The notes under the pieces: model-generated
The model's database searches: none
What the model saw: only the letters and a program-made list of their open reading frames with translations
What the model was told of the DNA's origin: nothing
Assembly (NCBI GenBank): GCA_030538425.1
Contig: JAUNTZ010000001.1
Location: 1-55,453, forward strand
Direction: 5' to 3'
DNA length: 55,453 nt
Source: Paracoccus sp. (in: a-proteobacteria)
GTDB lineage: Bacteria > Pseudomonadota > Alphaproteobacteria > Rhodobacterales > Rhodobacteraceae
Shown here: positions 15,392-54,100 of the stretch, piece by piece
Layout: every line of letters starts with the position of its first letter
Numbering within the stretch: the stretch's first letter is position 1
Program-made: the position numbers and the translations under genes

Positions 15392-15423
15392 GTTGTTGTT
15401 CTCATTGGCTTGGGGGGTGAAAA

Positions 15424-38973: not shown

Positions 38974-39861
38974 TCAAGGCCGCCTGATCAGAAAACTCTG
39001 GTTTGACCTGCATTCCGCCTTGTCCGTTTCAATTCGGTCGAGAGCGTCAAATCGCGTGTCGAAACCCCGGAACACCGTTCTGCAGTCTTGCTGCGTCCAG
39101 CAGCGGATAACATCTTGAAGCAAGCTCTTGACGATGCCCGTCCGCAGGTCCCACGTTACGGTCGCCCGCCCTTCGACGCCTTCGCGCAGAACACCTGTGC
39201 GGTAGAGAAATCCTCTGCCACTGCGATTGCACAAGAGTTCCCTCTGGCGTTCCTTTCCGTCCCCTGAGAGGCGGATATCGCCAAATACGACACCACCTGC
39301 GGCAAGGCTGTGATGCGCCCATTCGAGAATGCGCTGCGCGTCGTCGAGGGAGAAATGGTTCAGTATCTCGTAGTCAAGCAGCACAAGATCAAATTCGCCA
39401 AGTTCAGGCCGCGCCAGAAGTTCGGATTGGACCAAGCGGATACCGGGCATTCCGCCGAAACGCGACCGCGCCACCTCCAGACATGCCTTGGACCTGTCAA
39501 TCCCGGTGAAGCGGAGATTGCTCACATGCGATGCCAGAAAGCCGATCCAGTTGCCGACACCGCACCCGGCCTGGAGAACGCGCAGAGATCGACGCTTTAG
39601 GATTGGCGCGACCGGACGGCAGAGTTCTTCCAGATAGCGGATGCCGCGTGACCCGTTGTCGGTGCTTGGGCAAAGCTGCGCGGCGATCTGCCCCGCGTCA
39701 AAGCATGGCCGCAGGCGGTAGGGCAAATGGTTCGCTGTCGGTGCTATATCCTCGCCCCAGACCAGTTCCGGATCATCCGGCCCGAGATGCCCTGCTGGCA
39801 GGTCCCGCGGTGGCGCGCGCATCTCGTCGATGCTGGTCGCGAAGACAGCGCTGCCGGCCAT
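38974..39861 (-). CDS. Class I SAM-dependent methyltransferase of the RiPP cluster
   Basis: A 295-residue protein. The SAM-binding glycine-rich motif is LRVLQAGCGVGNWIGFLASH, followed by FTGIDRSKACLEVARSRFGG, and motif IV is FDLVLLDYEILNHF. The first ~90 residues are not recognised, though LPYRLRPCFDAGQIAAQLCP looks like a substrate-binding lead. It is the last gene of the minus-strand cluster; its start overlaps the stop of the PqqD-like gene by one base. It probably methylates the peptide product or a nucleotide- or sugar-derived group on it; the target is unknown. Confidence 0.75.
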   Translation of the reverse strand: MAGSAVFATSIDEMRAPPRDLPAGHLGPDDPELVWGEDIAPTANHLPYRLRPCFDAGQIAAQLCPSTDNGSRGIRYLEELCRPVAPILKRRSLRVLQAGCGVGNWIGFLASHVSNLRFTGIDRSKACLEVARSRFGGMPGIRLVQSELLARPELGEFDLVLLDYEILNHFSLDDAQRILEWAHHSLAAGGVVFGDIRLSGDGKERQRELLCNRSGRGFLYRTGVLREGVEGRATVTWDLRTGIVKSLLQDVIRCWTQQDCRTVFRGFDTRFDALDRIETDKAECRSNQSFLIRRP

Positions 39862-40118
39862 TATTGGAGGGCAATCACGGCACCTTCGGCTTCGAGGGTG
39901 TCGATGAAATCACTTACGTCGTATCGAATGACCTCTGGCTCAGCATCGTACTCTGCTGCCAGCGCGGCCGTAATGTCATCGACGGTAGTGGATTGTTCGA
40001 GACGTTTCCAAATCTCCTCGCCGACACCGGACAGTTCGATCGCTGAATTGGATCGGATCAGGAAGCTCCTTGTGCCGACCCGGCGCAGCCGGAACTCCAA
40101 GTTTTGTTCATAGTGCAT
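39861..40118 (-). CDS. PqqD-family RiPP recognition element protein
   Basis: An 85-residue stand-alone PqqD-like protein. Diagnostic positions are VGTRSFLIRSNSAIELSGVG, EEIWKRLEQSTTVDDITAAL and DVSDFIDTLEAEGAVIAL, matching the winged-helix pattern in which a hydrophobic 'N.t...iW..l.' core is followed by 'f...L...g.i'. Such proteins bind the leader of a RiPP precursor and present it to the modifying enzymes. AGGAAG lies 7-12 bases upstream of its ATG. It is encoded with a radical SAM maturase, short peptides and an exporter, which gives the cluster its RiPP identity. Confidence 0.82.
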   Translation of the reverse strand: MHYEQNLEFRLRRVGTRSFLIRSNSAIELSGVGEEIWKRLEQSTTVDDITAALAAEYDAEPEVIRYDVSDFIDTLEAEGAVIALQ

Positions 40119-40119
40119 T

Positions 40120-40938
40120 CTACACTTCCTCTAACAAGCTGTCTTGCTCTGCAATCTCGTTGAAAAGCCTCATCGCCGCCTGGATGGCCGTGGGGGTAAA
40201 TTTATTTTCGATCAGCAACTGTTCGAGACGCGTCGCTAAAGGTGCGACGCGTGGGCCGGCGTTGCGCAGGGTAAGCAACACCCACTTCTTGCGATCCACG
40301 CTTCGGCCAGCAAGAAAGCAAAGTGACATCCCGCCAAAAAGCAGAAGCTCATGTGTCAAGAGCGAAGCCGTCGCGGTGTCGCCCGCCGCCAGAACACCTA
40401 CCAAGTCCTCATAGACGTTGTCGCCGAGATTGGTGTGATAGCGGGCCTGCCAAAGGCAATAGGCCCGGTAGTCGAGGCTGTCCATCAACGCGCGATACCC
40501 GACCTCATCTTGTAGCACGATACCGTTTCGCAACCGATGCACAAGCTCGCCAACAGTCTCGTTGTCGTAATGAGGGCTTAGTCGGTCGAAGCTGAGGGAC
40601 TTGTGCGGGTCGCTGAAATCTATTGCCGAGATGGTGGCGAAGCTTTCAGCCAAGGCTTGCCTTGAGAGGACCTGGAAATCCAGCGTGGTCGAACCGAACG
40701 CTAGGATGTCGTTGGCACGCTTGGGGTGATTGTTGCGAAAGCGCCTGACTGTTTCATCGATGCGCTCTTCCTCAATCAAAGCGAATACGTCGAAGTCGGA
40801 ATTACGCGTCCCGTGGCCCTGAACGACGCTGCCGCCCAGCACAACGATTCCGTCTCTGTTGAGGGGTAACTGCGCCAGTATCGCATCAGGGGTAACGCCG
40901 TGGAACTTTGAAAAGGATTCAAGTGTCATGTAGCTCAT
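40120..40938 (-). CDS. Nucleotidyltransferase-superfamily protein of the RiPP cluster
   Basis: A 272-residue protein with the polymerase-beta-like nucleotidyltransferase motif: LGGSVVQGHGTRNSDFDVFA, in which Gly35-Gly36-Ser37 and the acidic pair Asp48/Asp50 would bind NTP and metal. The C-terminal ~150 residues are helical and unrecognised. I chose ATG at 40938 because GAGGAG sits 6 bases upstream; the gene overlaps the protease gene by 20 bp. Paeninodin-type lasso clusters pair a nucleotidyltransferase with a kinase that phosphorylates a C-terminal Ser, and this cluster also has a kinase and a Ser-ending peptide. An antitoxin/toxin or tRNA-modifying role cannot be excluded. Confidence 0.72.
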   Translation of the reverse strand: MSYMTLESFSKFHGVTPDAILAQLPLNRDGIVVLGGSVVQGHGTRNSDFDVFALIEEERIDETVRRFRNNHPKRANDILAFGSTTLDFQVLSRQALAESFATISAIDFSDPHKSLSFDRLSPHYDNETVGELVHRLRNGIVLQDEVGYRALMDSLDYRAYCLWQARYHTNLGDNVYEDLVGVLAAGDTATASLLTHELLLFGGMSLCFLAGRSVDRKKWVLLTLRNAGPRVAPLATRLEQLLIENKFTPTAIQAAMRLFNEIAEQDSLLEEV

Positions 40939-41692
40939 GGGGACTCCTCGACGAGGCAAGATTGCGAAGGATCAGCGGACCGAGGCGCGCGATGTTAAAG
41001 GTAATATGCGCCAGTATGCAGGCACCGAGCGAGCCGGTCACGAGATAAAGAAGGCCAAGCGCTACACCGGCAAGCATCTGGTTGGCGTAGTCTCTGGGCC
41101 GGAAGTCGCGGGAGGCCCAAGGCAGGCTGTAATGCGACAGCACGAACAGGACGACGGAAAGAAAAAGCGCGGTGCCTATGTCAGGGATCAAGGCGAAGAC
41201 GGCATAGCGGAAGAACAACTCTTCGAACACAGCGGCACCTGCCATTGATTGCACCGATAGCGCAAGGTTTGCCGCGCTCTGCCGAGGCACCACAATTTCG
41301 CGAAGATCACGATCCAGGAAGAGCTGCCTGCTTGGCCAAAGGAATACGAAAGAGAGCGCCGCTCCGACGAGGCCGCCAAGCGCCAGCGCAGGAAGGTCGG
41401 GCAACCCTGAAGTCAGCCCGGCGCGAAGCCCGGGAAGGCAAAGGACGGGAATAACCAGCGGTAGCCAGTAGGCCGCGCGTATCAGGGCGCGTTCAGTGAT
41501 CGTCGCGCCAAACGGAAGGGCCCTGATGAGCCCATTGAAGACGAAAGCCCCGGCCGTGCTTACGGCCAAGATTGCCGTTCCGGGCTGGGCCGCAGCGGCA
41601 AGAGCCGCCAATCCGCCGACCACCATCATCGCCATGAGAACCGGAAAGGGCCATGTGTTGCGATTGTTGGCATGCTGACCGGGACCGTTCAT
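40919..41692 (-). CDS. CPBP-family intramembrane protease of the RiPP cluster
   Basis: A 257-residue polytopic protein with the CPBP motifs VFEELFFRYAVFALI (Glu157, Glu158, Arg162), FVLSHYSLPW (His187) and ACILAHITFNIARL near the C-terminus. It starts in a 4-bp overlap with the exporter permease gene. In peptide clusters such proteases either remove the leader during export or give self-immunity, as with Abi proteins. Either role is possible here. Confidence 0.8.
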   Translation of the reverse strand: MNGPGQHANNRNTWPFPVLMAMMVVGGLAALAAAAQPGTAILAVSTAGAFVFNGLIRALPFGATITERALIRAAYWLPLVIPVLCLPGLRAGLTSGLPDLPALALGGLVGAALSFVFLWPSRQLFLDRDLREIVVPRQSAANLALSVQSMAGAAVFEELFFRYAVFALIPDIGTALFLSVVLFVLSHYSLPWASRDFRPRDYANQMLAGVALGLLYLVTGSLGACILAHITFNIARLGPLILRNLASSRSPHELHDT

Positions 41693-42453
41693 GCCCGCTC
41701 CAACCTTATCCGCAAGGCGCGGTGAAAGATGAGGGCCGTGACAATGCCGAAGATGAGGCAGACCACAATTTCTCGCCCAAGAGTCACCGCAAGACTCGGC
41801 GGCAGTAGTCCGTTGGCGTCATAGGTGGCGCGCAAAGCGGCAAGGCTGGCGTTGCCGGGTAACACGGATCGAACCGCTGTCCAGACATTTCCTTCAGGCA
41901 GGCGCGTGTCGGGCAGCAATGCCCCGCTAAGCAGGATGACGGCACTCCAGCAAATGTTGGAAAGCAGGTTGTAATCGTCGAACATCAGGCTCAGCGCTGA
42001 GAACAGGACGGCAAGGAAGCTGAGTGACGCGAGCGCAATGACTCCATAGCCAAGACCGGCCAGCGGCTGCTCGGGACCGTAGAGCACGCAGCCGATAAGC
42101 CAGACGACCAGAAGGATCGCAAGCCCTTCCAGCATCTGCGGCAAGATCCGCACAGCGACCAGATACACGAGGCTGCGGCTGCTCAAGGTAACGGCCGGAA
42201 GGACATTGGTCTCGGCTTCGGCACGAAAGATCTCTGGCGAGCGAAGGGCGACAAGCGCCCCGGCCTGAAGAACTGCCACCGCGACCAGCGTTTCAAACGC
42301 ATCGCGACCCGGCATTGCGAAGCCTGCAAGTGTCGAAAAAAGCGCTATGAACCATGCAGGATTGACAACCTTGTCGAGGATCATCTCGACGGGGTCGATC
42401 GGGACTGAATAGGCCCGATAGTTGCCAAAAGCCTGTTGCGCGAAAGCTCTCAT
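41689..42453 (-). CDS. ABC-2 type transporter permease (second subunit)
   Basis: A 254-residue integral membrane protein with six hydrophobic segments in the ABC-2 exporter pattern: an N-terminal cytoplasmic stretch ending IDPVEMILDKVVNPAWF, helices such as FIALFSTLAGFAM, and a late GREIVVCLIFGIVTALIFHR. It is encoded in a 4-bp overlap after the first permease, and both follow the ATPase. It probably exports the mature peptide and may confer immunity. Confidence 0.8.
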   Translation of the reverse strand: MRAFAQQAFGNYRAYSVPIDPVEMILDKVVNPAWFIALFSTLAGFAMPGRDAFETLVAVAVLQAGALVALRSPEIFRAEAETNVLPAVTLSSRSLVYLVAVRILPQMLEGLAILLVVWLIGCVLYGPEQPLAGLGYGVIALASLSFLAVLFSALSLMFDDYNLLSNICWSAVILLSGALLPDTRLPEGNVWTAVRSVLPGNASLAALRATYDANGLLPPSLAVTLGREIVVCLIFGIVTALIFHRALRIRLERA

Positions 42454-43232
42454 GCGATCTGCTCCTCGAGGGAAGCGCTGCGCCGGGCGGAGACCTCAGC
42501 AAAGCGCAGAGCGGCCCAGGCAATGACGAGTGCGCTGGACGACAGCAGCGCGCCAATGAAAAGCCCGATTGCGGGCGCCACCTGCGCGGGCTGTCCGAAT
42601 ACCACCTCGCGCATAACTGATACTGGCCAACTTGTCGGCAGTGCGCCTGAAACAGCACTCAGATGTGGCCCCAGAACGCTGATGGGAAAAAAGAATCCGG
42701 ACAGGAAGAAGATCGGCAGCTCAAGATAATTCATGACGAACCGTGACCTGTCGAAGATCACAAACAGCGCCGCGAATAAGAGGCCGAGCGCGAGCAACCC
42801 CAAGATAAATAGCACGACGGAAATTATCAGGAGTCCGGTAGACATAGCGCCCAGCCCCTTGGAAATTATTGCGAACACCAGCCAGACGACAACGGGTCCC
42901 CCGCTGAGAAGCGTGCTTCCGACGGCTTTTCGCAGAAATGTGCCCCAGAGACCGGAAGGCGTCAGCGCGATGGCGGCAAGAGTTCCCATGGCGCGCTCTC
43001 GGCCGATTTCTCCCACGGTCGTGAACACCACCGTGCCCCAAGCCGCGACCAGTGCCGCGGTGAGTGCCGCCTGGGAAACTGTTCGTTCAAAACCGGCCGA
43101 ATGGAAAACCGAGAGGACCAGCACGAGATAAACGAATGGCTGCACAAACAACGAATAACGAATCATAGAACGGCTCAGCGAAAGCCGGGCATGCAGCAAG
43201 AGCGTCGAATATCGGATGCAATCAGGAAGCAT
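42450..43232 (-). CDS. ABC-2 type transporter permease (first subunit)
   Basis: A 260-residue membrane protein. The start at 43232 (MLPDCIRYSTLLLHARLSLS) lies 11 bp inside the end of the ATPase gene. Six membrane segments are visible, including YSLFVQPFVYLVLVLSVFHS and LELPIFFLSGFFFPISVLGP, the latter with the Pro/Phe-rich block common in drug and bacteriocin exporters of the DrrB/NodJ type. It is probably the heterodimer partner of the next permease. Confidence 0.8.
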   Translation of the reverse strand: MLPDCIRYSTLLLHARLSLSRSMIRYSLFVQPFVYLVLVLSVFHSAGFERTVSQAALTAALVAAWGTVVFTTVGEIGRERAMGTLAAIALTPSGLWGTFLRKAVGSTLLSGGPVVVWLVFAIISKGLGAMSTGLLIISVVLFILGLLALGLLFAALFVIFDRSRFVMNYLELPIFFLSGFFFPISVLGPHLSAVSGALPTSWPVSVMREVVFGQPAQVAPAIGLFIGALLSSSALVIAWAALRFAEVSARRSASLEEQIA

Positions 43233-44178
43233 AGCGCAGGTAGATGTCTTCGAAAGTGACGTCGCGTGTCGAATAGCCGGCGACCGCAGCACCGAATCTC
43301 TCGAGCAGTTGGCGGTCTGTGGGATCCTGGCGTTCAAGAACCATGTGAAAGCCGCCATCATTCTTGCTTTCACGCGCGCCCAGTCGTGCGAGTTCTCCGA
43401 TAAGGCCGACCCTGCCAGCATCAAGCGGATCGCACAGGCTGATGCTGACAAACTTGCGGTTTTCGATCTCGCGGCGGCGCAGGTCCTCGTAGGGCTGGTC
43501 TAGGACCAGGCGGCCATCCTTGATGATGACGACGTGATCGCAGAGTTCTTCGATGTCGCGCATGTAATGCGATGTCAGCACGACGGTGCGGCCCTGATCC
43601 CTGAGCCGTCGCACCATTGTGCGAAAACGCTCGGCAGCTTCGACATCAAGGCCGATCGTCGGCTCGTCCAGAAACACGACCTCCGGGTCATTCAACAAGG
43701 TCCGCGCCAGATGCAGCTTCTGCCGCATACCCCTGGAATAGGTCATCACGCGGCGATGAAGGATTGTATCGTCTAGGCCGACCTCGGTTGCCAGTCGTGC
43801 AAGCGTGTCCGCCCGCGACGACATGGGGAGCGCGTGGAGGTTATAGAACATCGCCAGGTTTTCCTGGCCCGTAAGCCGTCCATAAAGTCCACGCTCGCCG
43901 CCGAACATGATCGCGATGCGTGACCGGATCCACCGATAGTCGCGCTTGACGTCGTGCCCGAGCACCTTGACTTCACCCGCACTTGGCAAAAGCAGCGTCG
44001 ACAGGACCTTCAGGATCGTCGTCTTGCCGGCACCGTTCTGGCCCAGCAAACCGAAAATGGAACCTTTCCGAACCTGAAAGGACACGTTCTGCAAGGCGTT
44101 TACGCATTTGGGTTGCGAGAAAAAACCGCGCTGCAAGCGAAAGTCCCGGCAAAGGTTTGTGACCTGGAGAGCTGTCAA
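43222..44178 (-). CDS. ABC exporter ATP-binding protein, DrrA/CcmA type
   Basis: A 318-residue ATPase. Walker A is GLLGQNGAGKTT (residues 43-54), the signature is YSRGMRQKLHLARTLL, Walker B is VVFLDEPTIGLD and the switch His is in LTSHYMRDIEEL. The C-terminal domain ending VTFEDIYLRYAS is typical of DrrA-like exporters, which often move antibiotics or peptides. The best start is a TTG at 44178 with GGAAA upstream. It opens the three-gene exporter directly after the 32-aa peptide gene and an intervening hairpin. Confidence 0.85.
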   Translation of the reverse strand: MTALQVTNLCRDFRLQRGFFSQPKCVNALQNVSFQVRKGSIFGLLGQNGAGKTTILKVLSTLLLPSAGEVKVLGHDVKRDYRWIRSRIAIMFGGERGLYGRLTGQENLAMFYNLHALPMSSRADTLARLATEVGLDDTILHRRVMTYSRGMRQKLHLARTLLNDPEVVFLDEPTIGLDVEAAERFRTMVRRLRDQGRTVVLTSHYMRDIEELCDHVVIIKDGRLVLDQPYEDLRRREIENRKFVSISLCDPLDAGRVGLIGELARLGARESKNDGGFHMVLERQDPTDRQLLERFGAAVAGYSTRDVTFEDIYLRYAS

Positions 44179-44235
44179 AATCTGGTTTCCATTATTTGCT
44201 GTTCTTGAGGCTCAGCCCATAAAGAACTCGTGGAC

Positions 44236-44262
44236 GCGTCAGCCGCGAAACACGGCTGGCGC
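44236..44262 (-). terminator. Attenuator hairpin after the 32-aa peptide gene
   Basis: GCGTCAGCCG and CGGCTGGCGC pair over ten positions with one imperfect pair, around a 7-base loop. It lies 27 bases after the stop of the short peptide gene and before the exporter ATPase gene. A short T-rich stretch (TTCTTT) follows on the minus strand. Partial termination here would make the peptide more abundant than the exporter. Confidence 0.6.
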
Positions 44263-44288
44263 AAGAGTTTCTTCGGGTTAATCCGTCA

Positions 44289-44387
44289 TCACGAGTAGAC
44301 GGTACCACCACCGCCGACGCTGGATTCAGCGCCCAGCGCAGCCGGCAGACGCACCGGAGTTGCCTTTGGTTTGATATAGGTCTTCAT
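44289..44387 (-). CDS. 32-aa RiPP precursor-like peptide ending Gly4-Thr-Val-Tyr-Ser
   Basis: A 32-residue frame, short enough to be easily missed. Its ATG at 44387 has a perfect AAGGAG Shine-Dalgarno with 6-7 bases of spacing. The N-terminal part begins MKTYIKPK and continues ATPVRLPAALGAESS; the YxxP pattern (Tyr4, Pro7) resembles the leader motif that PqqD-like proteins read in lasso-type leaders. The C-terminus is VGGGGTVYS: a flexible Gly4 run, then Thr-Val-Tyr-Ser as the last residues. Val-Tyr near the end recalls mycofactocin precursors, though those end in Val-Tyr itself. It lies between the HExxH enzyme gene and the exporter genes and is followed by a hairpin. I read it as the substrate of the cluster's enzymes; the leader/core boundary is a guess. 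Confidence 0.75.
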   Translation of the reverse strand: MKTYIKPKATPVRLPAALGAESSVGGGGTVYS

Positions 44388-44459
44388 GTCTTTCTCCTTC
44401 GATGTATCCGCGCCCGATTGCGCGAATGGGGATGTGTCGTCAGTCAGAGCACGACAACA

Positions 44460-45410
44460 CTAATTCATCGCTTGTTCCGCGGGCGCCTCCGGCCGCGTTG
44501 CTGCGCGAAACAACGTCTCGATCACCTCTGCGATCATCGGGGTTTGAAGATGGCTCAGAATATCGTCCAGGCTTCCAGCCATGGCGGACAGCCGCGCCGA
44601 TTGCGCGCGGGCTTGCAATGCCGCGTATTCGGCCTCGGCGGCAGGAAGATCAAGGCGCTTGAGCGCCGTGCGTAAGAACAGCACGACATAAGAGAACGCG
44701 ACAAAGGCATGCACCATCCCCGCCACCGGCCGCTCGACCCCGCGCCAAGGCGAAAGCCATCGTGGTTGCTCGGGCAGAGGTTCATCGAAATGATCGAACA
44801 GGTAGTTCAACCAGTTATGCGCGGACTCGTGCACCAGTGTCTCCGCATTGCGGATGGCCATCGCGTGGCTGTCCATGAAGATCGAGGCGTGAAGCGCGGT
44901 AATCGTGTAGCTCTCGAGATGTTCACCTTCAGATTTCCGGTCGAGCTCGATCAGCATCCCCATGGAGCGGTCAACAAGCTCGGAAAAGCCGGTCCCCTCC
45001 AGATACAATCTGGCCGCTGCAAGCCACGGCGCGGCCTGTTGCGGTTCGTTCCGGAAGAAGTCGTAGAGATAGATCGGCGACTGGAACGCGCTGTCCGCGA
45101 CATGGACACAGTCCGAGCGTGAAATACACATCAACTGCCCCTGCGCGGCTGAAGACACGCTCCAGCCTCGCACCGCATGGTCAAGCCTTTCAAGCGCATC
45201 GGATTTCTTGGCATTTGCGAGATCGAGTGCCAGATAGAAAAGATGGTCGATCAACGCCGCATCGGTGATGTTGGAAGACTCGCTCTGCTGTAACAGCACG
45301 CATTTATTCTCGGGAAACAATTCGCGCAGCGCCTCGCGTTTCTGGTTGAGGCGCGAGGCCTGTGCTTGCCTCACAGGTTCGTAAGTTTGGGTCATATCGA
45401 TTGGTGACAT
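44460..45410 (-). CDS. HExxH-motif putative peptide-modifying enzyme
   Basis: A 316-residue protein. The metal-binding HESAH (His194, Glu195, His198) sits in AETLVHESAHNWLNYLFD, and a further conserved-looking His is in PVAGMVHAFVAFSYV about 35 residues on. The layout resembles the 'HEXXH motif putative peptide modification' family seen beside radical SAM maturases. Some members of that family are described as alpha-ketoglutarate-dependent peptide beta-hydroxylases rather than proteases. The start at 45410 follows GGAG at a somewhat long spacing; an ATG at 45395 lacks one. It is encoded 2 bases after the kinase gene and directly before the 32-aa peptide gene, its likely substrate. Protease activity for leader removal is the alternative. 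Confidence 0.75.
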   Translation of the reverse strand: MSPIDMTQTYEPVRQAQASRLNQKREALRELFPENKCVLLQQSESSNITDAALIDHLFYLALDLANAKKSDALERLDHAVRGWSVSSAAQGQLMCISRSDCVHVADSAFQSPIYLYDFFRNEPQQAAPWLAAARLYLEGTGFSELVDRSMGMLIELDRKSEGEHLESYTITALHASIFMDSHAMAIRNAETLVHESAHNWLNYLFDHFDEPLPEQPRWLSPWRGVERPVAGMVHAFVAFSYVVLFLRTALKRLDLPAAEAEYAALQARAQSARLSAMAGSLDDILSHLQTPMIAEVIETLFRAATRPEAPAEQAMN

Positions 45411-45412
45411 GT

Positions 45413-46081
45413 TCAAACAATCTCCATATAATCCGCAGTCTGGGAAATTTCGTCGAGAACGGGGTGAAGGAGTGCTTGAAAAAGCGCCTCCATCCGGCCG
45501 GTTTCGTTTTCGAAACGGACAACCCTCATGCCGGTAAGATCTTCGCAAATAGGCAGCGTTTTCATATAGATGTCGCTGATACGGCGGAGGTCCACCTCGC
45601 GCTCGTAGTGGCGGCGATGCTTGCCTCGTTGGGCGATGCGCGCGACCGCAGTTTCAATATCGACGAAGACATAGATCAGTGTCCCTGGAAACAGGAAACC
45701 CTCATTTATGTATCGCCGGATCGCCGCGGCGGCATCCATGCCGTAAAGCGCTTCTTGATATACCGCATCGCTGACGATTGTGCGGTCCGCAAGAACGATT
45801 CCCCGGTCGAGCATCGGACGCACATTATACAATTCGTGCAGACGCTTGTCTTGGCGATAGGCCGCCTCGATGACTTCGGGTGCATAGCGCATCCGCTGTT
45901 CCCGAACACCAAGAATGACGCGCGCCGCTTCAACATCCCTCCAGGAATGCTGGCCGATCTCGATCATGTCCGGAGCGGTTCGGCGTAATTCGCGCGCGAT
46001 ACGCTGACGCAAAGTCGTCTTGCCGGCACCGTCGCAGCCTTCGAGCCCAATGAAGTTCGGATGTGAACGCGCTTTCTTCAT
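45413..46081 (-). CDS. Thymidylate-kinase-like P-loop kinase of the RiPP cluster
   Basis: A 222-residue P-loop kinase. Walker A is GLEGCDGAGKTT (Lys21), and the DRx catalytic region is IVLADRTIVSDAVYQEALYG. The FPGTLIYVFVDIETAVARIA segment and the following RGKHRRHYE lid resemble dTMP kinases. The TMP-specific Glu-Pro-Gly block of housekeeping enzymes is replaced by IGQHSWRDVEAARV, so the substrate probably differs. In this cluster it could phosphorylate the peptide, a sugar or a nucleotide used for tailoring. It overlaps the upstream unknown gene by 4 bp. Confidence 0.75.
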   Translation of the reverse strand: MKKARSHPNFIGLEGCDGAGKTTLRQRIARELRRTAPDMIEIGQHSWRDVEAARVILGVREQRMRYAPEVIEAAYRQDKRLHELYNVRPMLDRGIVLADRTIVSDAVYQEALYGMDAAAAIRRYINEGFLFPGTLIYVFVDIETAVARIAQRGKHRRHYEREVDLRRISDIYMKTLPICEDLTGMRVVRFENETGRMEALFQALLHPVLDEISQTADYMEIV

Positions 46082-46887
46082 TGCAACATCTCCCGGGCGG
46101 GAGGACCAAGATCCGACATCAGGTCGAACGGCGAATTGAAGATGACGGCTGCCCGGTTCCACAAGGGAAGCCAATAGGCGACCAACTCGTCGCAAAGCGG
46201 AAAACTTGTTCCGGCACCGAACACATCCATCAGCGAGTGCTCGCCTACATAAGTGTCTCGAATTCCTTCCAACACCTGATCACGGTCGATGATATGCGGC
46301 ACCCTCGCGGCAAACTCTGCGAGAAGTGAGGCCGCGAATACGTCAGCGCGCGCGTCAAGAAAATCAAGCGCCTGCGGGGAAAGAGGCGTAGAAAACGCGG
46401 CGCAGTCTGGGCCCTCTGCGCGCAGCCAAAGGATCAGGATTCCCTGCGCCACACGAACCAGTGCGCGCACCTCATCGTCCGCCGTTGCATCCTCATCCTG
46501 CTTCGCCTCGAATGGAGGAAGCGCGATGCCGACCAGGACGTCCAGGCCCGACGCGCGAAGCCGGGGGCCCACGCGATGCGGTCCCTCAGGATCGATCCCG
46601 CAGGTCGCAAACACTTCGTCCACCACTGAAAGCACTGGTTGCCGTGCCCCGAGCAGGTCTTCCAGTTTGGGGGGCAGGAGCGCCGGAGTGCCGGATCCGT
46701 CGATTGTGGCAGGACGACGCGCGGCCGGGTTCGCCGCCAGAAGACGGGGCTCGATGAACAGCACGTGTTGATAGACCGTGCGACCGTCGATCATGTATCG
46801 GTAGGGACCAGTATCAGACATGTCGCGTTCGAAAAGAGCGACAGAGTCCACATGATCAACGACTGGAAACTTGGCCATCTTGTTCAT
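46078..46887 (-). CDS. Unknown protein of the RiPP cluster
   Basis: A 269-residue soluble protein that I do not recognise. It has no signal peptide or membrane helix. Notable stretches are GPYRYMIDGRTVYQHVLFIE near the N-terminus, an acidic AKQDEDATADDEVRALVRVA in the middle and a final AYWLPLWNRAAVIFNSPFDL. It overlaps the Nudix gene before it and the kinase gene after it by 4 bp each, so it is certainly part of the same operon. It could be a tailoring enzyme or a scaffold; no catalytic motif is obvious. Confidence 0.75.
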   Translation of the reverse strand: MNKMAKFPVVDHVDSVALFERDMSDTGPYRYMIDGRTVYQHVLFIEPRLLAANPAARRPATIDGSGTPALLPPKLEDLLGARQPVLSVVDEVFATCGIDPEGPHRVGPRLRASGLDVLVGIALPPFEAKQDEDATADDEVRALVRVAQGILILWLRAEGPDCAAFSTPLSPQALDFLDARADVFAASLLAEFAARVPHIIDRDQVLEGIRDTYVGEHSLMDVFGAGTSFPLCDELVAYWLPLWNRAAVIFNSPFDLMSDLGPPAREMLQ

Positions 46888-47531
46888 GACGCGATCCCGT
46901 CCTGATACCCTTCGAGCGCGTCAAAATGCGCCGCCAACCATTCGGACTGACCAGCGATCAAGGTCAGATGGCGGTTTAGTGGCCGCCACTCGACGACGAA
47001 GTCGTGACCGTCGGCATGTTGCACCCAAGACAGGCGCCCGTCGTTTTCCGCTCTTGCGACAAAGAAGCTCCGACGAATCCTGGTCGCGAATCCGCAAAGG
47101 TCCGCCCACCCGGCGTCCACCGGAAGCTCTGCCGGCGGCTGCACGTTGAAATCGTAGACGAGTCTGCGGACGAGTACACGCGCGCCATCGCTTCGCTCAA
47201 TCCGGACGCGATGTCCGCGCTTTATTCGATCAGTTACGATACCCGACGCATCCCGGACCGCCGTATCCGCCAAGGCGACGGCTTCACCTTCCAGCGCCTC
47301 GACCCATTCACCAATCGCGACGAAATCAGTCAAACCCTCGAACCCGGTTTCCTCGATCACTTCTCGACGGGCAGCCTCGACTGGCAATTCGCCCTGTTCG
47401 ACTGAGCCAGCCGGTAGCTGTCTGCCTGCCAAAGGATGCAGGAATGTCAAAACTTCCGTATGGCGTGCACGATAACGAAGCACGAATACTGTAACCTTGT
47501 CGAAACTGTGTGAACCAACATCCGAATTCAT
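46884..47531 (-). CDS. Nudix hydrolase of the RiPP cluster
   Basis: A 215-residue protein with a perfect Nudix box, GX5EX7REUXEEXGU, from Gly42 to Phe64 (GSVEQGELPVEAARREVIEE followed by TGF). Nudix enzymes split nucleoside diphosphates linked to another group. The long C-terminal region (~140 residues), including DFNVQPPAELPVDAGW, is unusual and may be a separate domain. The start at 47531 overlaps the preceding gene by 4 bp. With the kinase and nucleotidyltransferase in this operon it suggests nucleotide-activated tailoring or a detoxifying immunity function. Confidence 0.82.
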   Translation of the reverse strand: MNSDVGSHSFDKVTVFVLRYRARHTEVLTFLHPLAGRQLPAGSVEQGELPVEAARREVIEETGFEGLTDFVAIGEWVEALEGEAVALADTAVRDASGIVTDRIKRGHRVRIERSDGARVLVRRLVYDFNVQPPAELPVDAGWADLCGFATRIRRSFFVARAENDGRLSWVQHADGHDFVVEWRPLNRHLTLIAGQSEWLAAHFDALEGYQDGIAS

Positions 47532-48151
47532 GACATCCCCGCTTTTCGACTGAATTCCTCTCTTAGAATTGGCATGAGCCAAGCCGTCGCTTCATCGATT
47601 CCGGAAAAGTAGGTTTTCTGGCCGGTCAGAGGTGCAAATTCAATATCGAGAACATCGCAACCTCGAGTCGGGTCGTTGAGTCTATGCCGAAGCACCCCAA
47701 GCGAAATATCACTCGCCCCATGGAATGAAATTCTGAATGAATTAACGACCGCATCCAAAAATTCGTTAACTTCAAAATATTCTTGGCTATCCCTCGGCAG
47801 GATGCCAACATGGCGCAGGCTGGATGGAGCGCCGATCCCCTCGTGGCCTTCGCAACTGGTGTATGTGATCCAACCGCATTCGTGGATGAAGAAAAGACAC
47901 AAATCCCGAATGCCGGGTTCAAGAAATTGTTCAAATCCGTCGTACCACGGCGGCAATGTCGGAGCCGTGAGGCTTTCGGCGCTTGCGCACCATGAAATTG
48001 CACCATTCGAAGCCCGCCCCGTCTGTGCAACCATATGCTCGCTCGCAAAAGTAGAGCCAGGCCGAGACCATTTTGTGATAATATCCGCAATGTCGATTGT
48101 GACATTCGGGGTGCGGGCGCGGTGCACCAACCCGTTGTCGAAACAAGTCAT
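47528..48151 (-). CDS. Unknown protein with a Ser-Cys-Glu-Gly-His motif
   Basis: A 207-residue soluble protein that I do not recognise by name. The central block ECGWITYTSCEGHEGIG contains Cys92, Cys100 and His103, a plausible catalytic or metal site. The C-terminal half is a mixed alpha/beta stretch with VGILPRDSQEYFEVNEFLDA and DVLDIEFAPLTGQKTYF. It sits directly after the radical SAM gene (4-bp overlap) and before the Nudix gene (4-bp overlap), so it is probably a dedicated maturation enzyme or partner of the radical SAM protein. Confidence 0.75.
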   Translation of the reverse strand: MTCFDNGLVHRARTPNVTIDIADIITKWSRPGSTFASEHMVAQTGRASNGAISWCASAESLTAPTLPPWYDGFEQFLEPGIRDLCLFFIHECGWITYTSCEGHEGIGAPSSLRHVGILPRDSQEYFEVNEFLDAVVNSFRISFHGASDISLGVLRHRLNDPTRGCDVLDIEFAPLTGQKTYFSGIDEATAWLMPILREEFSRKAGMS

Positions 48152-49299
48152 CCACGAGCCTCCGCAATGCGGTCCGCCATAAAATCGATCAACCCCTTAC
48201 GGTAGTTGCAGTAGTCTTCTTCTCGCCCAACCGTCCGGAATCGGCCTCGCGTTGCAACGCATCCTCCATGGCACCGATTGAGGTAATCGCAGGTCGAGCA
48301 TTTTTGCATCATCGCGCTCGCGGCGGCGGCGGCGCGACACCCTTTGTATCCAGTATCGTCAAGTCGAAGTTGATCCATACGGCCGATCGCAGCCTCGCCA
48401 CGGTCGAGTTCATCGCAAGAGCCCACTTCATCACCGGGGTAGAGTGTTACCACATGACCGCACTTAACTGACGAGTAGCTGCACGTGTCGGTTGAAACAC
48501 CTAGAAGGGATCGGGTGAGTGCGAGGAACGGCTCCAAAACGAAGCTTTCATTGAATCCTTCGGACAACCAAAGGTCGAACGCATTCTGCAGAAACGCCAA
48601 AAACTCAACAGGCGTAACCGACCATGCCGCACCCATGGCCACGCCAGAGGCACTTGCGGCGCGCGTCGCGACCGAGCGCCGGGGGCCCACGCCTTGCTGG
48701 ACACCAAAATCGAAACAGGGGACGAGCTTCAGCAGACGAACATTCGGGAACTGTGACGCAAGTTCCAGAAGCGCTTTCTCCTGCCCGAGCGATCGGCGCG
48801 TTACCACGGCGATGAGACCGGCACGGATTCCTTGCTCATTGAGCAAGGAAAGACCGCGAAGTATGGCATCCATCGCGGGTTTGCCCCGGTGATCAAGCCG
48901 CCACGAATTCATGTCGGCTGGTCCATCAAGCGAAACGCCGATCTCGAAGCGTTCCGCGATCGGCCTGAAGATTTCGATCCAACCGGAATCCAGCCGTGTT
49001 CCATTGGTTTGCATGGCCACGCTTTCGACCTGCGGAGTTTGCTGCAGAATCTTAACGATACGCTTCATCCGGTCCTTCGGATACAGAAGGGGCTCGCCGC
49101 CATGAAGCTCCACCCGCAATGGGCGATCAGGAAATTGCGCGAGCAGTCGCGCAACACTATCTGGTTCGATCAAACGGTTTCCGGAATACGGCTTTCTTCG
49201 CTCGTAACAATAGGCGCAATCGAGGTTGCAGACTTCGCCCACCAGCTTGAGCAAAAGGGATACTGTATCTCCCGACTGAACTGGATCGATATCTAACAT
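48148..49299 (-). CDS. Radical SAM/SPASM peptide maturase
   Basis: A 383-residue radical SAM enzyme. The [4Fe-4S]-SAM motif is Cys24-x3-Cys28-x2-Cys31 in EVCNLDCAYCYERRKPYSG. VELHGGEPLLYP carries the GGEP SAM-binding motif. The C-terminal SPASM domain has the Cys pattern CX2CX5CX3C (CSTCDYLNRCHGGC), with further Cys before and after it for auxiliary clusters. Such enzymes make C-C, C-S or C-O cross-links or decarboxylations in RiPP precursors. ATG at 49299 has GGAG 11 bases upstream; a GTG at 49311 is possible but too close to it. It follows a 50-aa leader-like gene and a hairpin, and is the key enzyme of the cluster. Confidence 0.88.
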   Translation of the reverse strand: MLDIDPVQSGDTVSLLLKLVGEVCNLDCAYCYERRKPYSGNRLIEPDSVARLLAQFPDRPLRVELHGGEPLLYPKDRMKRIVKILQQTPQVESVAMQTNGTRLDSGWIEIFRPIAERFEIGVSLDGPADMNSWRLDHRGKPAMDAILRGLSLLNEQGIRAGLIAVVTRRSLGQEKALLELASQFPNVRLLKLVPCFDFGVQQGVGPRRSVATRAASASGVAMGAAWSVTPVEFLAFLQNAFDLWLSEGFNESFVLEPFLALTRSLLGVSTDTCSYSSVKCGHVVTLYPGDEVGSCDELDRGEAAIGRMDQLRLDDTGYKGCRAAAAASAMMQKCSTCDYLNRCHGGCVATRGRFRTVGREEDYCNYRKGLIDFMADRIAEARG

Positions 49300-49362
49300 A
49301 TCCAGAGACACTCCAAACTAAAAATGGGTCGTACCGCTGTTATAGCGCCAAAGAGATGGTCT

Positions 49363-49382
49363 GGGCGGCCATTCGACCGCCC
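49363..49382 (-). terminator. Hairpin between the 50-aa peptide gene and the radical SAM gene
   Basis: GGGCGGCC and GACCGCCC pair over eight positions (one G-U in the minus-strand RNA) around a 4-base loop, 8 bases after the stop of the short gene. It repeats the arrangement seen after the 32-aa peptide gene and probably lowers read-through into the enzyme genes. Confidence 0.65.
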
Positions 49383-49390
49383 AAATAAAT

Positions 49391-49543
49391 TCAATCGGAG
49401 GTTTTTTGCATATTCTGAAGGATCTGGTCGCCGTCTTTGACGTTGGCTGCCGAATGATGACGCGCCGCTCGACCGAGGTCTTCTGCAAGCCCCTTCTTTT
49501 CCACGGCTTGAAGGAAGTTCTGAAGCTTTTCTTTCTGAGTCAC
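49391..49543 (-). CDS. 50-aa leader-like peptide at the head of the RiPP operon
   Basis: A 50-residue frame starting at a GTG (49543), with GGAGAAAG 6-13 bases upstream. It begins MTQKEKLQNFLQAVEKKG and continues LAEDLGRAARHHSAAN, which resembles the amphipathic first helix of Nif11-type RiPP leaders (FL..V....L...L). It ends VKDGDQILQNMQKTSD, with no Cys, aromatic or Gly-Gly site. It is immediately upstream of the radical SAM gene with a hairpin between. It may be a second precursor, a leader-only helper peptide or a regulator. The ribosome site and position are good; the function is open. Confidence 0.6.
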   Translation of the reverse strand: MTQKEKLQNFLQAVEKKGLAEDLGRAARHHSAANVKDGDQILQNMQKTSD

Positions 49544-49669: not shown

Positions 49670-51160
49670 GTGGCAAATGACTCTGGCAGATTTGGCTCAC
49701 CCCATCTTCGCGCCCCAGAAGGACGTTTGGTCGGCCGAGACGTAGCCGTCCGCGACCCGGAAGGCCCCCTAAAGCTCGACGGTATCGCTTGCGGTGAGCG
49801 GCACCATGGTCTGCAGCAAGCCGGCGCCTTGGTAACGAAGCCGGTCTGCCATCTCAGCCCGAGATCGTCGCCTGCGGCCTCCTTGTTCATGGTGAAGAAC
49901 AGATCTCCGGTGCCCCCTCAGCCACGGTCTTTGCGGTCCAGAGCGCCGCGTTCAGCTTGCCCGAGAACGGAGAGCTGGACGAGCCCGTCGAAGATCCGCA
50001 GCGCCTCGTTATGGATGACATGCTTCTGGGCCTACGGCAGTTCGGTCTCCTGGCCGCCGGTCAGTTCCAGCACGTCGCCCTTTCGGGCGGCCACCAGATC
50101 GTCGGGTGCAAGGGTGGCGACGGAGGCCCGGCCGCGCATGACGAAGCGGACCACGCCCTGGGTCTCCACCGCGTCGAAGCCGCAATGCCGCGCAAGCGTG
50201 GTGATCGAGGCGCGCGGGCTCTCGAGCGCCGTGATGTCGTAGCTTTCGATCGCGCCCAATAGGCCCGTCACGTCGATCCGGGATGCGGGCAGCCCGGCAC
50301 GCAGGCAGAGGTGGCGGACCAGAGCCGCCAGAGACACCGTGCCGAGACGCTGGGTCAGCCAGTGCCCAAGCCGCCAGTTCGCGCCGTCCGTCCAGATGTC
50401 GGTCAACGCTGGGAAGAACGGATATGGCCGCGCGTCCCGGGTCCAGGCGGCACATTCGGGGACGTGCACCATCCGGCCGCCATAGACCGACGAGATCGGG
50501 TTGTTCGCGGCCTTGCCCCACCAGAGATATGTCGCCTCGAGCTAGGCCCGCTGGATGGCATCGCCGCGCCGGCCTCGCGAGAAATGCGGCGTGAAGCTCT
50601 TGGACGACTTCGGGTCGAAGACGACATTCGGCTGGTTGTTGCATGGTCGATGGCGGGGCATCCGAGCTCGGTGAACCAAACGGGCTTGGAATGCGGCGCC
50701 CATGCGGTCGGCGTGCCGCTCTCCACGCCTCCGGGGCGATTGGAATGCGCATTCGACCACAAGGCGCGCAGATCCTTGTAGCGGAAGGCCCACGGCTTGC
50801 TGGCGGGACCGTCGGTGATCGAGGTGCGCGGGCGTAAAACCAGTCGAGGCCTTCGCCGCCCGCAATGTTTCCATGCAGATAGGCCCGCTCGTAGATCGCA
50901 GGCCAGCCTTCCTGCGCGTCGACGTGCGCGAACCCATCCTGCAAGTCGGATAGCGGCATGTAGTTGTCGATCCCGATGAATTGGGTCTCGGGATCGGCCC
51001 AGACCTTCCATTGTTCGTCGTGAGCTGCATCCAGCTCACCGGGGCGATTGCATCCGGATCGGCTCGAACAGCCGCCGAAACGCACGAACGCGCTATCGAC
51101 ACGATGATGAAGATGGCGGGGTTTTCACCCCCGCCACATACAGGCATCCGATGGTGACTG
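49665..51160 (-). pseudogene. Frameshifted remnant of a GTA/phage baseplate multidomain ('megatron') protein
   Basis: Minus-strand fragments in shifting frames match what I know of the Rhodobacter gene-transfer-agent megatron (host specificity, TIM-barrel-like) protein. In order they are FIGIDNYMPLSDLQDGFAHV, YLHGNIAGGEGLDWFYARAP, FRYKDLRALWSNAHSNRPGG, TAWAPHSKPVWFTELGCPAI, QPNVVFDPKSSKSFTPHFSR, NPISSVYGGRMVHVPECAAW and DIWTDGANWRLGHWLTQRLG. Frame changes and stops interrupt the series (for example near 50545 and 50830). The fragment lacks both the N-terminal half and the true end. It abuts the direct repeats of the peptide cluster on one side and the helicase gene on the other. It is not functional as read. 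Confidence 0.8.
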
Positions 51161-51164
51161 CGCC

Positions 51165-54100
51165 TTATTTCGGGGTCTGGGAAAGTTCTCGCCAGTTGCG
51201 GCAGATGCTCAGATAATCCCTTGCGTCTTTGCTCAGCCGTGCGATTCCGGCGAGGCGTGCGATCTCAAGTTCAGGGTCCTCTGCCTCAGAAATCCGGGTA
51301 GCGTTGCGGTCGATCAATTCCGCAATCTCGGTTCGTGAAATCTCGCGCAGGGAACGCCCGTCCATACCCCTGAACGGCACCCGGTCCTTGATGCCGCCCC
51401 TGGTCCAGAGAAAGCGGATGCCGTCTTCTGTGGTGACATCGAATTGACCCTCCAGGGCGGCAAGACGCGCCTGAATCCGTGCCCCCGTGCGTTGCCAGCC
51501 GTGAAGCTGGGCCATATGCCGCGCCAGCGAGGTTGCGGGCATCGGGCCGTGCGCGGTGACGGCCTTTTGCATCAACGCCACAAGCTGCGGCGTATAGCTG
51601 TCCTCAAAGAACCGATCTGCATCAGGGGTGGTATCAGGTTCGGGAATGGCCGCTTGCGGTGCGTGCTGGTCCGCCGACCGCGCAAATTGCGCGACAGGTT
51701 CAGCCTCGGGAAGGAAATTTTCCCGGACGATGGTCGTCGGGGCAGCGATCTCTGGTTCGGGCGGCAGCGGGTCGGGGTCTTGCAGGCTTTCTTCTACCTC
51801 GGCCCGCCGCAGACGGTCCGCCTCCAGAATGTCCCGCAACCCGGCGTCGATGCGCCCGAGCGTTTCTGCCGGAGCGCGGAACCAGTCGGTTGACCAGATC
51901 CGCAGGATGGACCAGCCCAATCCCTCCAGAACGGCCTGCCGTATCCGGTCGCGATCCCTTGCCGTGGCCGAGGAATGATAGCGTGCGCCGTCACATTCCA
52001 CGCCAGCCAGCCAGACGCCCGCATGGTCGGGATGGCGCATGCCAAGGTCGATGCGGAAACCGGATACGCCGATCTGGCTGTGAACCTCCCAGCCTTTCGC
52101 AGTCAAGGCATCGCGCACCGCCTCTTCAAATGGCGATTCCACCGGACCAAGCGACCCGCTGTCCTGCGCAGCAAGCGCCACCGCGCCGCGATCCGCATAA
52201 TCGAGGAACGCCTTGAGGTCCGCCACCCCGCGCGCACGGGTGCGGGTCAGGTCGATCTGGTCGGCGGTGATCGACGCGAACACATGCAATTCAGACCGCG
52301 CACGCGTCACCGCCACGTTCAGCCGCTTTTCGCCGCCGTCCTTGTTCATCGCCCCGAAGTTCATCGTGAATTTCCCGGCCTGATCCGGACCGAACGTGAT
52401 CGAGAACAGCATGACATCGCGCTCGTCCCCCTGGATGTTTTCAAGGTTCTTGACGATCAGCGGCTCTTCGCGGTCATCTGAGAAGAACCATTCCAAATCC
52501 GGGCTCGCCTTGCGCGCAGCATCCAGCAGGTCGAGGATCAGGCCCTGCTGCTGCGCGTTAAAGGTGATGACGCCAAGCGTGGGGCGGTTGTCCTCGGGCA
52601 GTTTCAGCCATTCCGTCAGCCGCTTGCAGATGAAGGCGGCGATGGCCCGCGCCTCGTCGGGGTTGGTCGAGCCTTTGCCGCGCTGATAGACGCCCTTGAC
52701 CTTGTGCAGCCGCACCGCCTGTCCCGAGGCATCCGGCGAGGGAAAGGTGACCAGACCCCCATCGTAATAGAAATGGTTCGAAAACGCGATCAGCGCCTCA
52801 TCGCGGCTGCGGTAATGCCAGTTCAGCCGATGCGTTGGGATGCCTGCCGCCGCGACCTCATCGAGGATCGACGGCATGTCCTTCTCGAATTCGGCAAGAT
52901 CCGCGCTTTCGTCGTTGTCGTCATCGCTGCGGCCAAAGAAGTTTGTTGGCGGCAATTGCTTTGGGTCGCCCACAATGATGGCCTGACGCCCGCGCGCAAT
53001 CGCGCCGATCGCGTCCCAGGTCGATATCTGCGAGGCTTCGTCAAAGATCACCAGATCAAACTGCGCCTGCCCCGCCGGCAGATATTGCGCGACCGAAAGG
53101 GGCGACATCAACACGCAGGGCGCCAGTTTGGCAAAGCTGGTCGGCATATCGCCGATCAGATTGCGGATTGCCTTGGTCGGGCGCTGCAAGCCCAGCTGGT
53201 GACGCAGCCCGCCCAGTTCCGAGTTGCGCGGCACCGCGTCCCGCATCGGCAAATCATTGCCCAGACGGCGCATGACCTCGGTCGAGGCCAGATCGGCCAA
53301 AGCGGCGTCCAATTCGCGGAAACGCTGGATCAGCGCGTCATGTTGCCAATGCGCAAAGCCGCGCAGGCAGGGTTCGGCATCCATTGCCAGACGCAACCAC
53401 CACGCCATATAGGCGCGTTCGAACGCGCGGGCTGCGTCGTCGATATCGGCCTTTTCTTCAAGCGCGGCGACCAGAGGTTCCAGCCCTGCATGGACCGCCT
53501 CGGCCCGGCTGGCGCGCCATTTCAGCCAATCGGAAAAGCGATGTTGCAGGCTTTCCAGCCCGGCCAGCAGGGGGGCGCTATCCGGGGGCAAGGCACCGCC
53601 AAGGGCCGTAAAGGCGCTTGCGGCGGCCTGTTCGGCGTGGCTTGTCTGGGCGACCTGACGAAGCGCCGGCGCGAAGCTGCCGCCCGACAGCCGGGACAGT
53701 TCCGCCCGGTGTTCCTCGGTCCTTGATGCGGGCAGACCTGCGGCGCGCAGGTGGCGTTCCAGTTCCAGAAACGCCTTGGCGGCGTCCAATTCGGCGCTGA
53801 TGCGCGTGATGTCGGACGACTCGCCCGCGAATCCGGGCAGGTCGTGCAAGTCCGACGCGGCAATGTCCTGCCGCGCCCGCAGCAATTGGCGCAGCGCAGG
53901 CAAATCGCGCGCCGGATCGGCCTGCCCCGACATGGTATAGGTTTGCAGCAACCGGCGCAGTTTCCGTTGCGCCATCCCGGCAAAGGGCCATGATTTGCCT
54001 TGCGCGTCGCGCCATTGAAGTTCCAGCGTATCCAGCGGCATATCGGCCAGCCCCTCGTCGGGGTAACTGGCGGCAAGCGCGCCCCGTGCCTGCCGCGCCG

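Follow-up and report, generated by a model that had tools for sequence, protein, structure and literature searches.

A low-GC gene block in a Paracoccus contig as a candidate RiPP island of two units

Gene content and layout of the block

We analysed a window of 55,453 nucleotides (nt), positions 1 to 55,453 of contig JAUNTZ010000001.1 from Paracoccus sp. (assembly GCA_030538425.1; 2.69 Mb in 92 contigs, 86.6% complete), which holds a block of 15 genes at positions 38974-49543 that there is strong reason to assign to ribosomally synthesized and post-translationally modified peptides (RiPPs). For the first 24 kb, the nearest matches in plasmid DNA include Paracoccus records (about 76% identity), and the host was taken for a Rhodobacter-like alphaproteobacterium. 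All 15 genes lie on the minus strand and form one contiguous, operon-like block; nine of its 14 junctions are overlaps of 1-20 nt, two are gaps of 1-2 nt, and the remaining three, of 79, 72 and 110 nt, all adjoin the short peptide genes. The GC content is 57.7% in the block against 65.3% in the left flank and 63.9% in the right, in agreement with a sequence-only reading of this DNA that had described fifteen mostly overlapping minus-strand genes of lower GC than their surroundings.

Read from 49543 down to 38974, the block opens with peptide A (49391-49543), a candidate precursor of 50 amino acids (aa) whose open reading frame has a GTG start and an upstream sequence resembling a ribosome-binding site (RBS). 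It adjoins the gene for a radical S-adenosylmethionine (SAM)/SPASM maturase (48148-49311, 387 aa, PF04055 at 59.8 bits), after which come unk1 (47528-48151, 207 aa), which carries a TYxSCxGH domain, a Nudix hydrolase (46884-47531, PF00293 at 36.0 bits), unk2 (46078-46887, 269 aa), a thymidylate-kinase-like kinase (45413-46081, PF02223 at 56.1 bits) and an HExxH protein (44460-45410), a putative alpha-ketoglutarate-dependent peptide beta-hydroxylase with the motif HESAH (mod_HExxH, TIGR04267, 61.1 bits against a cut-off of 40). Peptide B follows (44289-44387, 32 aa, MKTYIKPKATPVRLPAALGAESSVGGGGTVYS), preceded by an RBS-like GGAG, and then an ABC exporter ATPase (43222-44178, PF00005), ABC-2 permease 2 (42450-43232, PF01061) and permease 1 (41689-42453, PF01061 at 18.1 bits), a CPBP/Rce1 intramembrane protease-like protein (40919-41692, PF02517), a nucleotidyltransferase-fold protein (40120-40938, PF01909 at 20.9 bits against a cut-off of 21), a PqqD-like stand-alone RiPP recognition element (39861-40118, PF05402 at 63.6 bits) and a class I SAM methyltransferase (38974-39861, PF13649 at 52.5 bits). 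Below, the genes from peptide A to HExxH are referred to as unit A, and peptide B, PqqD, nucleotidyltransferase, CPBP and ABC exporter as unit B; the 72- and 110-nt gaps flank peptide B and form the seam between them.

The names given earlier to the radical SAM, HExxH, PqqD, kinase, Nudix, methyltransferase and CPBP proteins are borne out by these hidden Markov model (HMM) matches. Those of the nucleotidyltransferase and the three-gene exporter stand in part: the ABC ATPase and one permease are recovered, whereas the nucleotidyltransferase match is marginal and permease 1 falls under its cut-off. The two proteins that had gone unrecognised, unk1 and unk2, have no Pfam or NCBIfam match at E<=1, and unk1 has no credible match in the PDB either. 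At the RNA level, a stem-loop lies just 3' of peptide A (49360-49385, minus strand; -22 kcal/mol, z -3.68, none of 200 shuffles as stable) and is the longest stem in a terminator scan that found 14 candidates against 11.9 expected. The stretch 3' of peptide B folds less strikingly (z -2.43, 3/200 shuffles), and the stretch 5' of it has no notable fold (z -0.61). Rfam and tRNA scans gave no matches.

Relatives of the two units in other bacteria

A tblastn search with unk1 against 72,556 plasmid records returned one match, to the C-terminal end of a radical SAM protein (631 aa) from Streptomyces clavifer, located on plasmid NZ_CP107794 in a cluster with the order Nudix, radical SAM/unk1, 209-aa protein, 2-oxoglutarate (2OG)-like oxygenase, thymidylate-kinase-like protein, protein kinase, 51-aa peptide and HExxH; unk2 found no match in the same plasmid records. 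BLASTP between the window and S. clavifer gave E values of 2e-88 for the radical SAM enzyme, 5e-19 for the kinase, 3e-16 for unk1, 3e-15 for HExxH and 6e-7 for Nudix. With HExxH as query, a second cluster was found on a plasmid of Kitasatospora cathayae, and a three-row unk1 alignment was then searched against 394 genomes of the one family that contains this plasmid, presumably Streptomycetaceae. Twenty-two genomes matched at E<=1e-3; for 17 the match was at E<1e-25, and 16 of these 17 carry the cluster; the other strong match (G1281) lies in a different radical SAM/HExxH/unk1 cluster. Together with the S. clavifer plasmid this gives 17 loci, which include near-copies (the precursors of L085 and L119 are identical, as are those of L123 and L124). 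Gene calls place Nudix, a fused radical SAM-unk1 protein, a short peptide and HExxH in 17/17 loci, with the kinase found by gene call or tblastn. The check for co-occurrence proposed with the sequence-only reading thus found these genes together, and the scattering that was to speak against a cluster was not seen.

The 17 loci fall into seven of S type, in which every unit-A gene has a counterpart, and ten of K type. S-type clusters share Nudix, radical SAM-unk1, unk2, thymidylate-kinase-like kinase, peptide and HExxH with the window; they differ in an extra 2OG-Fe(II)-oxygenase-like protein and protein kinase and in the fusion of radical SAM and unk1, and they hold no PqqD, CPBP or exporter among their labelled genes, whereas the window has all three. 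The order in the K type is a 244-aa protein, thymidylate-kinase-like kinase, phosphoenolpyruvate (PEP)-mutase-like protein, Nudix, a TylF-like methyltransferase (7/10), 2-hydroxyacid dehydrogenase, nucleotidyltransferase-like protein, radical SAM/unk1, a 2OG-like protein (7/10), peptide and HExxH. Judged from sequence, the window's unit A belongs with the S type, because unk2 matches the S-type 209-aa family (hhalign E 6e-6, probability 85%, 64 columns) and not the K-type 244-aa family, and because the best match of its kinase is the S-type cluster kinase. In 5/5 S-type genomes tested with the window kinase the cluster kinase came first at 61.6-77.2 bits, the next place scoring 31.7-33.7 bits, and the other match in the window's own genome reached 29.7 bits.

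Several features of these clusters stand apart from the window. In the K-type locus L085 (4823-12501) and nine similar ones (L119, L120, L127-L133), the PEP-mutase-like protein scores 190 bits against a cut-off of 319.55, and its motif EDSxYPK[CT]NSF is present in 10/10; with the 2-hydroxyacid dehydrogenase, the precursor, radical SAM and HExxH, a RiPP-phosphonate hybrid is possible. The K-type Nudix box is altered in 9/10 (RKVxQETG for REUxEExG, e.g. L085:7130-7618) and has no match at all in L133, while the boxes of the window and of the S type are intact. Genes of 431-443 aa follow HExxH in five S-type loci. A serine hydrolase resembling D-aminopeptidase/class C beta-lactamase lies 3' of HExxH in L122 (14835-16166, scanned), and L124 has a gene in a similar position (14776-16071).

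Other groups of genomes were searched with unk1 as well; the unk1 searches, that of the family included, score few candidates per genome (7 or 14), so that misses are possible. Among 292 genomes of the window's order and 385 of its class, the only credible match was in the window itself; 395 genomes of another actinobacterial class gave no credible match, and viral contigs gave nothing. In the class to which G1169 belongs (197 genomes), a single genome, G1661, has unk1, and there it lies in another radical SAM-containing neighbourhood. Weak matches (E 1e-6 to 1e-3) in five of the 22 family genomes, two of the other actinobacterial class and one of the window's class were taken for chance, and the two of these eight regions that were viewed (L135 in G1521 and L145 in G563) held no cluster genes. 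The radical SAM alignment had three distant matches in viral contigs, and a pattern scan of genome contigs gave only distant radical SAM proteins (best identity 31%; 80 of 457 kept) because short exact patterns were used. In locus L134 (312-5191), a YhhB/FxsB-like radical SAM gene (285 and 281 bits), an HExxH protein, an unk1 homologue and a subtilisin-like protein lie together, and this company ties unk1 to YhhB/FxsB-like radical SAM proteins. A further unk1 homologue lies beside another radical SAM gene in L144 (8592-17849).

Unit B has relatives of its own. The window ABC ATPase led to a cluster on the Geobacillus thermodenitrificans plasmid pGeo12a (L147:290-10545; E 1.5e-71 for the ATPase and 2.9e-15 for CPBP), with the order short peptide, PqqD, thymidylate synthase, phosphotransferase, thymidylate synthase, Nudix, dTMP kinase (83.6 bits against a cut-off of 83.25), UDG-like protein (weak, 15.5 bits), PqqD, nucleotidyltransferase-like protein, 21-aa peptide, CPBP, CYTH, ABC ATPase and two permeases. 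The Geobacillus nucleotidyltransferase led in turn to the Streptococcus salivarius plasmid pSaLI10 (L152:5508-16289, one of two near-identical records), where two thymidylate synthases, a thymidylate-kinase-like kinase, PqqD, a nucleotidyltransferase-like protein, a 20-aa peptide, a phosphotransferase, a CYTH-Nudix fusion and an exporter are found, CPBP not being among the annotated genes. Shared with the window are an MKxYxKP-like peptide, PqqD, the nucleotidyltransferase-like protein, ABC exporter, thymidylate-kinase-like kinase and Nudix, and in Geobacillus also CPBP. By contrast, thymidylate synthases, CYTH, phosphotransferase and QueA-like proteins stand in place of radical SAM, unk1 and HExxH. 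Both clusters, which have a pair of divergent thymidylate synthases and two short peptides, one of these rich in KCR/SRC, give the impression of a separate nucleotide-linked RiPP type.

The link between the tiny peptides is one of position and sequence. On both Bacillota plasmids a peptide beginning MKKYEKP or MVYKKP lies directly 3' of the nucleotidyltransferase gene, and peptide B begins MKTYIKP. The pattern M.{0,2}Y.KP, which was picked after the three peptides had been seen, occurs once each in 1,700 short readings of the window and in 478 and 548 of the two plasmid loci; it is found in 0/336 short readings of L146 and in 3/38,193 control readings, none of the three with an RBS-like sequence. 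Because PqqD travels with the peptide B unit without radical SAM or HExxH on the two Bacillota plasmids, peptide B may be the partner of the PqqD-like protein, in place of peptide A. A similar ABC ATPase occurs in 23 plasmid records, and among the six that were viewed Geobacillus has the unit, Streptomyces HUAS 15-9 has the nucleotidyltransferase and exporter only, and four have neither. Permease 1 had no match in plasmid records. The window nucleotidyltransferase matched one Neorhizobium plasmid and a single genome among 195 others of the order, both in neighbourhoods where no other cluster genes were found, and the methyltransferase had one weak Sphingobium match. An Apilactobacillus thymidylate synthase match has no PqqD, kinase or Nudix annotated nearby.

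Taken together, unit A is kept with a short peptide across two phyla, and most of unit B recurs beside a kinase, Nudix and thymidylate synthases. We read the block as a composite of two units because each of them recurs without the other elsewhere. The earlier proposal of one RiPP cluster therefore holds as to its RiPP nature and is modified as to its unity, with PqqD, nucleotidyltransferase, CPBP, exporter and peptide B assigned to the second unit.

The His-x-Ser peptide and the radical SAM enzyme

Peptide A carries FLQAV near its N-terminus and, further on, RAARHHS, which contains H29-x-S31. All 17 Streptomycetaceae clusters hold a short peptide with H-x-S (HTS or HSS) after a leader F(L/V)xxV, 15 of the sequences being distinct, so that in this family a short precursor is conserved beside dedicated modifying enzymes, as is expected of a RiPP. 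F10, V14, H29 and S31 of peptide A recur in each of the remaining 15 rows of an alignment of the precursors, H29-x-S31 (an aromatic residue at i and its partner at i+2) is present in 16/16 rows, and the spacing of 19 residues from FLQAV to HHS is that of the S-type precursors. We regard peptide A as a candidate precursor because of its position, these shared residues and the stable 3' stem-loop, and its likeness to the outside precursors is suggestive.

The radical SAM enzyme has the features of a SPASM protein, with CxxxCxxC and eight further cysteines invariant in three aligned sequences. It is 36-38% identical to two Streptomycetaceae cluster enzymes, and in a tree (midpoint rooting) it groups, on a long branch, with 13 radical SAM proteins of these clusters (SH-aLRT 99), apart from that of L134 and from 45 others, which were taken for sulfatase-maturase-like and represent 45 of the 79 radical SAM proteins recovered from 80 loci of the contig scan. 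Three-residue cyclophane enzymes (3-CyFE radical SAM proteins) join an aromatic residue to the C-beta of residue i+2; in PMC11002830, HaaB and YhhB link His C2 in this way and MscB links Phe to Ser (His-to-Ala, His-to-Arg and Phe-to-Ser links being reported), so His as the aromatic residue and Ser as the partner each have a precedent singly. HExxH enzymes are described in PMC12636437 as hydroxylating Asp and His residues, one of these reactions depending on a cyclophane formed beforehand. An invariant His-x-Ser beside a SPASM radical SAM enzyme and HExxH, the latter above the TIGR04267 cut-off, fits both cyclophane cross-linking and HExxH hydroxylation.

Several results weigh against this view of the peptide and its enzymes. 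An HMM built from the 15 distinct outside precursors placed peptide A second among 1,296 window frames at E=0.55, which is not significant; hhalign against the Streptomyces precursors gave a probability of 15%; and with an ungapped score matrix peptide A came fifth, a higher best score being obtained in 60 of 61 shuffled sets. Peptide A qualifies as a candidate precursor by position and shared residues and not by a significant score, and it precedes the radical SAM gene, whereas the Streptomycetaceae peptides precede HExxH. The best NCBIfam model for the radical SAM enzyme is the anaerobic sulfatase maturase TIGR03942, at 144 bits against a cut-off of 349.45. The cyclophane-type maturases DynA and AmcB come next, both under cut-off, and the enzyme stays below every listed cyclophane cut-off (AmcB 106.6/425, YhhB 96.9/445, GrrM/OscB 83.9/310, XyeB 73.9/450 and FxsB 65.1/370 bits). 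In both K-type genomes examined, the cluster kinase scored below another kinase (21.9 vs 36 and 20.0 vs 33.9 bits), and the similarity of the window nucleotidyltransferase to those of Geobacillus (8.6e-4) and Streptococcus (0.003) is weak. AlphaFold models made without alignments are poor for unk1 (pLDDT 34) and unk2 (pLDDT 39). Finally, the searches found no relative with all 15 genes, which leaves joint action of the units conjectural.

Triceptide systems (XncB, OscB, MscB, HaaB, YhhB) share with the window a SPASM radical SAM enzyme and a short precursor with a conserved aromatic-x-X motif; they differ in that the window enzyme is under the curated cut-offs, unk1 is fused or adjoining, and Nudix, thymidylate-kinase-like kinase and unk2 are always beside it in the S type. 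Because it is under all listed cyclophane cut-offs, we would not file the enzyme as a triceptide maturase. ChlBH-type radical SAM-fused HExxH enzymes, BpmH and PflC/PosC represent the same alpha-ketoglutarate-dependent beta-hydroxylase family in RiPP clusters (PMC12636437). By contrast, HExxH in the window is a separate protein, its radical SAM enzyme belongs to another subgroup, and kinase, Nudix, unk1 and unk2 are added.

Three known classes had been set aside earlier on gene content, and they fare no better here. Lasso clusters resemble the window in having a PqqD-like protein (B1) and a Y-x-x-P motif in the leader; a lasso peptide is nevertheless unlikely, since B2 and C (asparagine synthetase-like) were not found among the 15 genes or the ten neighbouring frames scanned. 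The motif E-x3-Y of PqqA-type peptides is in neither peptide and the gene content of the block also speaks against PQQ, making it likewise unlikely. For mycofactocin, the radical SAM enzyme scores 41.5 bits against an MftC cut-off of 265, and no other Mft family was reported for the genes scanned. No description of such a cluster was found in open-access full text, a scope outside which lie the supplements of subscription papers, including the primary triceptide papers; this agrees with the earlier view that no described RiPP class has this enzyme set.

Proposed pathway, competing explanations and flanking genes

We tentatively favour a RiPP biosynthetic island of two units in which a His-x-Ser cross-link and a hydroxylation are followed by phosphoryl or nucleotidyl decoration and export. 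The radical SAM/SPASM enzyme, helped by unk1, would cross-link the conserved His of peptide A to the Ser at i+2 in a reaction of the three-residue-cyclophane type, and HExxH would beta-hydroxylate a residue nearby, most likely the His; both the link and the hydroxylation site are what we infer from the conserved motif. The thymidylate-kinase-like kinase and Nudix, with unk2, might produce or trim a phosphoryl or nucleotidyl group destined for the product. PqqD would present peptide B, the nucleotidyltransferase would decorate either a peptide or the product, processing and export would fall to CPBP and the ABC exporter, and the methyltransferase would add a methyl group. Kinase and Nudix occur in the window, in Streptomycetaceae and in Bacillota alike, and their nucleotide-making company in Bacillota suggests that these pathways attach a phosphoryl or nucleotidyl group to a ribosomal peptide or its product. 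For the window itself, this decoration is put forward as a hypothesis, as is the service of both units to one product.

The main rival, possible and yet on the unlikely side, is that the block holds two separate RiPP pathways next to each other without a common product, unit A leading to a product of peptide A and unit B making or exporting another from peptide B. It would account for unit A occurring without unit B in Streptomycetaceae, for unit B occurring without radical SAM and HExxH on the Geobacillus and S. salivarius plasmids, and for the longest gaps around peptide B (72 and 110 nt) falling at the seam. However, the genes run contiguously on one strand with a uniformly low GC content, no exporter belongs to the window's unit A itself, and unit B in Bacillota also comes with a thymidylate-kinase-like kinase and Nudix, enzymes that link both halves. 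The TIGR03942 score, together with a Ser31 kept in 16/16 aligned precursors, raises a different chemistry, in which the radical SAM enzyme oxidises this serine to formylglycine and leaves an aldehyde for conjugation. We consider this improbable, given that 144 bits is far under the cut-off, that the enzyme sits on its long branch away from the 45 proteins taken for sulfatase-maturase-like by homology alone, and that the His at Ser-2, as conserved as the Ser, is unexplained by formylglycine formation.

The decorating enzymes could also be seen as self-protection, with kinase, nucleotidyltransferase and Nudix keeping a product phosphorylated or adenylylated inside the producer until it is unmasked outside, so that the final structure would carry no nucleotide. 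Nucleotidyltransferase- and phosphotransferase-fold proteins are classical self-resistance enzymes, and in the Bacillota loci one protein has the annotation aminoglycoside phosphotransferase or phosphotransferase. By contrast, a kinase of the thymidylate kinase family, Nudix and the two Bacillota thymidylate synthases point to nucleotide substrates, leaving self-protection a poor prospect. PADLOC, given the radical SAM, HExxH, kinase, Nudix, unk1, unk2, nucleotidyltransferase, PqqD, methyltransferase and flanking helicase proteins, matched the radical SAM enzyme to prokaryotic viperin (46.5 bits) and the kinase to the viperin-associated kinase VakA (39.6 bits), which would suit an antiviral system of radical SAM enzyme and thymidylate-kinase-like partner. 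But the radical SAM enzyme reaches higher scores with the models of sulfatase maturases (144 bits) and cyclophane maturases (about 107 bits), and HExxH, PqqD, two peptides and an exporter have no place in such a system. To our knowledge viperins lack a SPASM domain, the cysteines of which are present here, and with these, the peptide genes and so low a viperin score we reject this type of defence as highly improbable.

If the two-unit island is what we propose, it would represent a RiPP group, present in two phyla or more, whose peptide pathway combines cross-linking by a radical enzyme and hydroxylation with chemistry of a nucleotide or phosphonate type, and it would give the TYxSCxGH domain of unk1 its first genetic context and a candidate role as a radical SAM partner. 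One might go further and imagine, although we think it rather doubtful, a family of peptide-nucleotide products (or peptide-phosphonate ones in the ten Streptomycetaceae clusters with the PEP-mutase-like gene), in which a special nucleotide or phosphonate from a kinase/Nudix/nucleotidyltransferase supply line is attached to the cross-linked, hydroxylated His-x-Ser peptide, with the tiny MKxYxKP peptide as a second, carrier peptide in some members. Plasmid-borne clusters in cultured bacteria (Streptomyces clavifer, Kitasatospora cathayae and Geobacillus thermodenitrificans) allow direct testing.

The block is flanked on the left by an aromatic-acid gene set with a LysR regulator and on the right by a broken gene of gene transfer agent type. 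This remnant (50009-51147), which adjoins the low-GC block, matches the gene transfer agent TIM-barrel family PF13547 (74 bits over 61 residues), and its frame breaks off. It is followed by a large helicase-nuclease (51165-55400; DUF4011/AAA/MTES_1575/DUF3320), which matches the PADLOC candidate PDC-S37 at 1068 bits.

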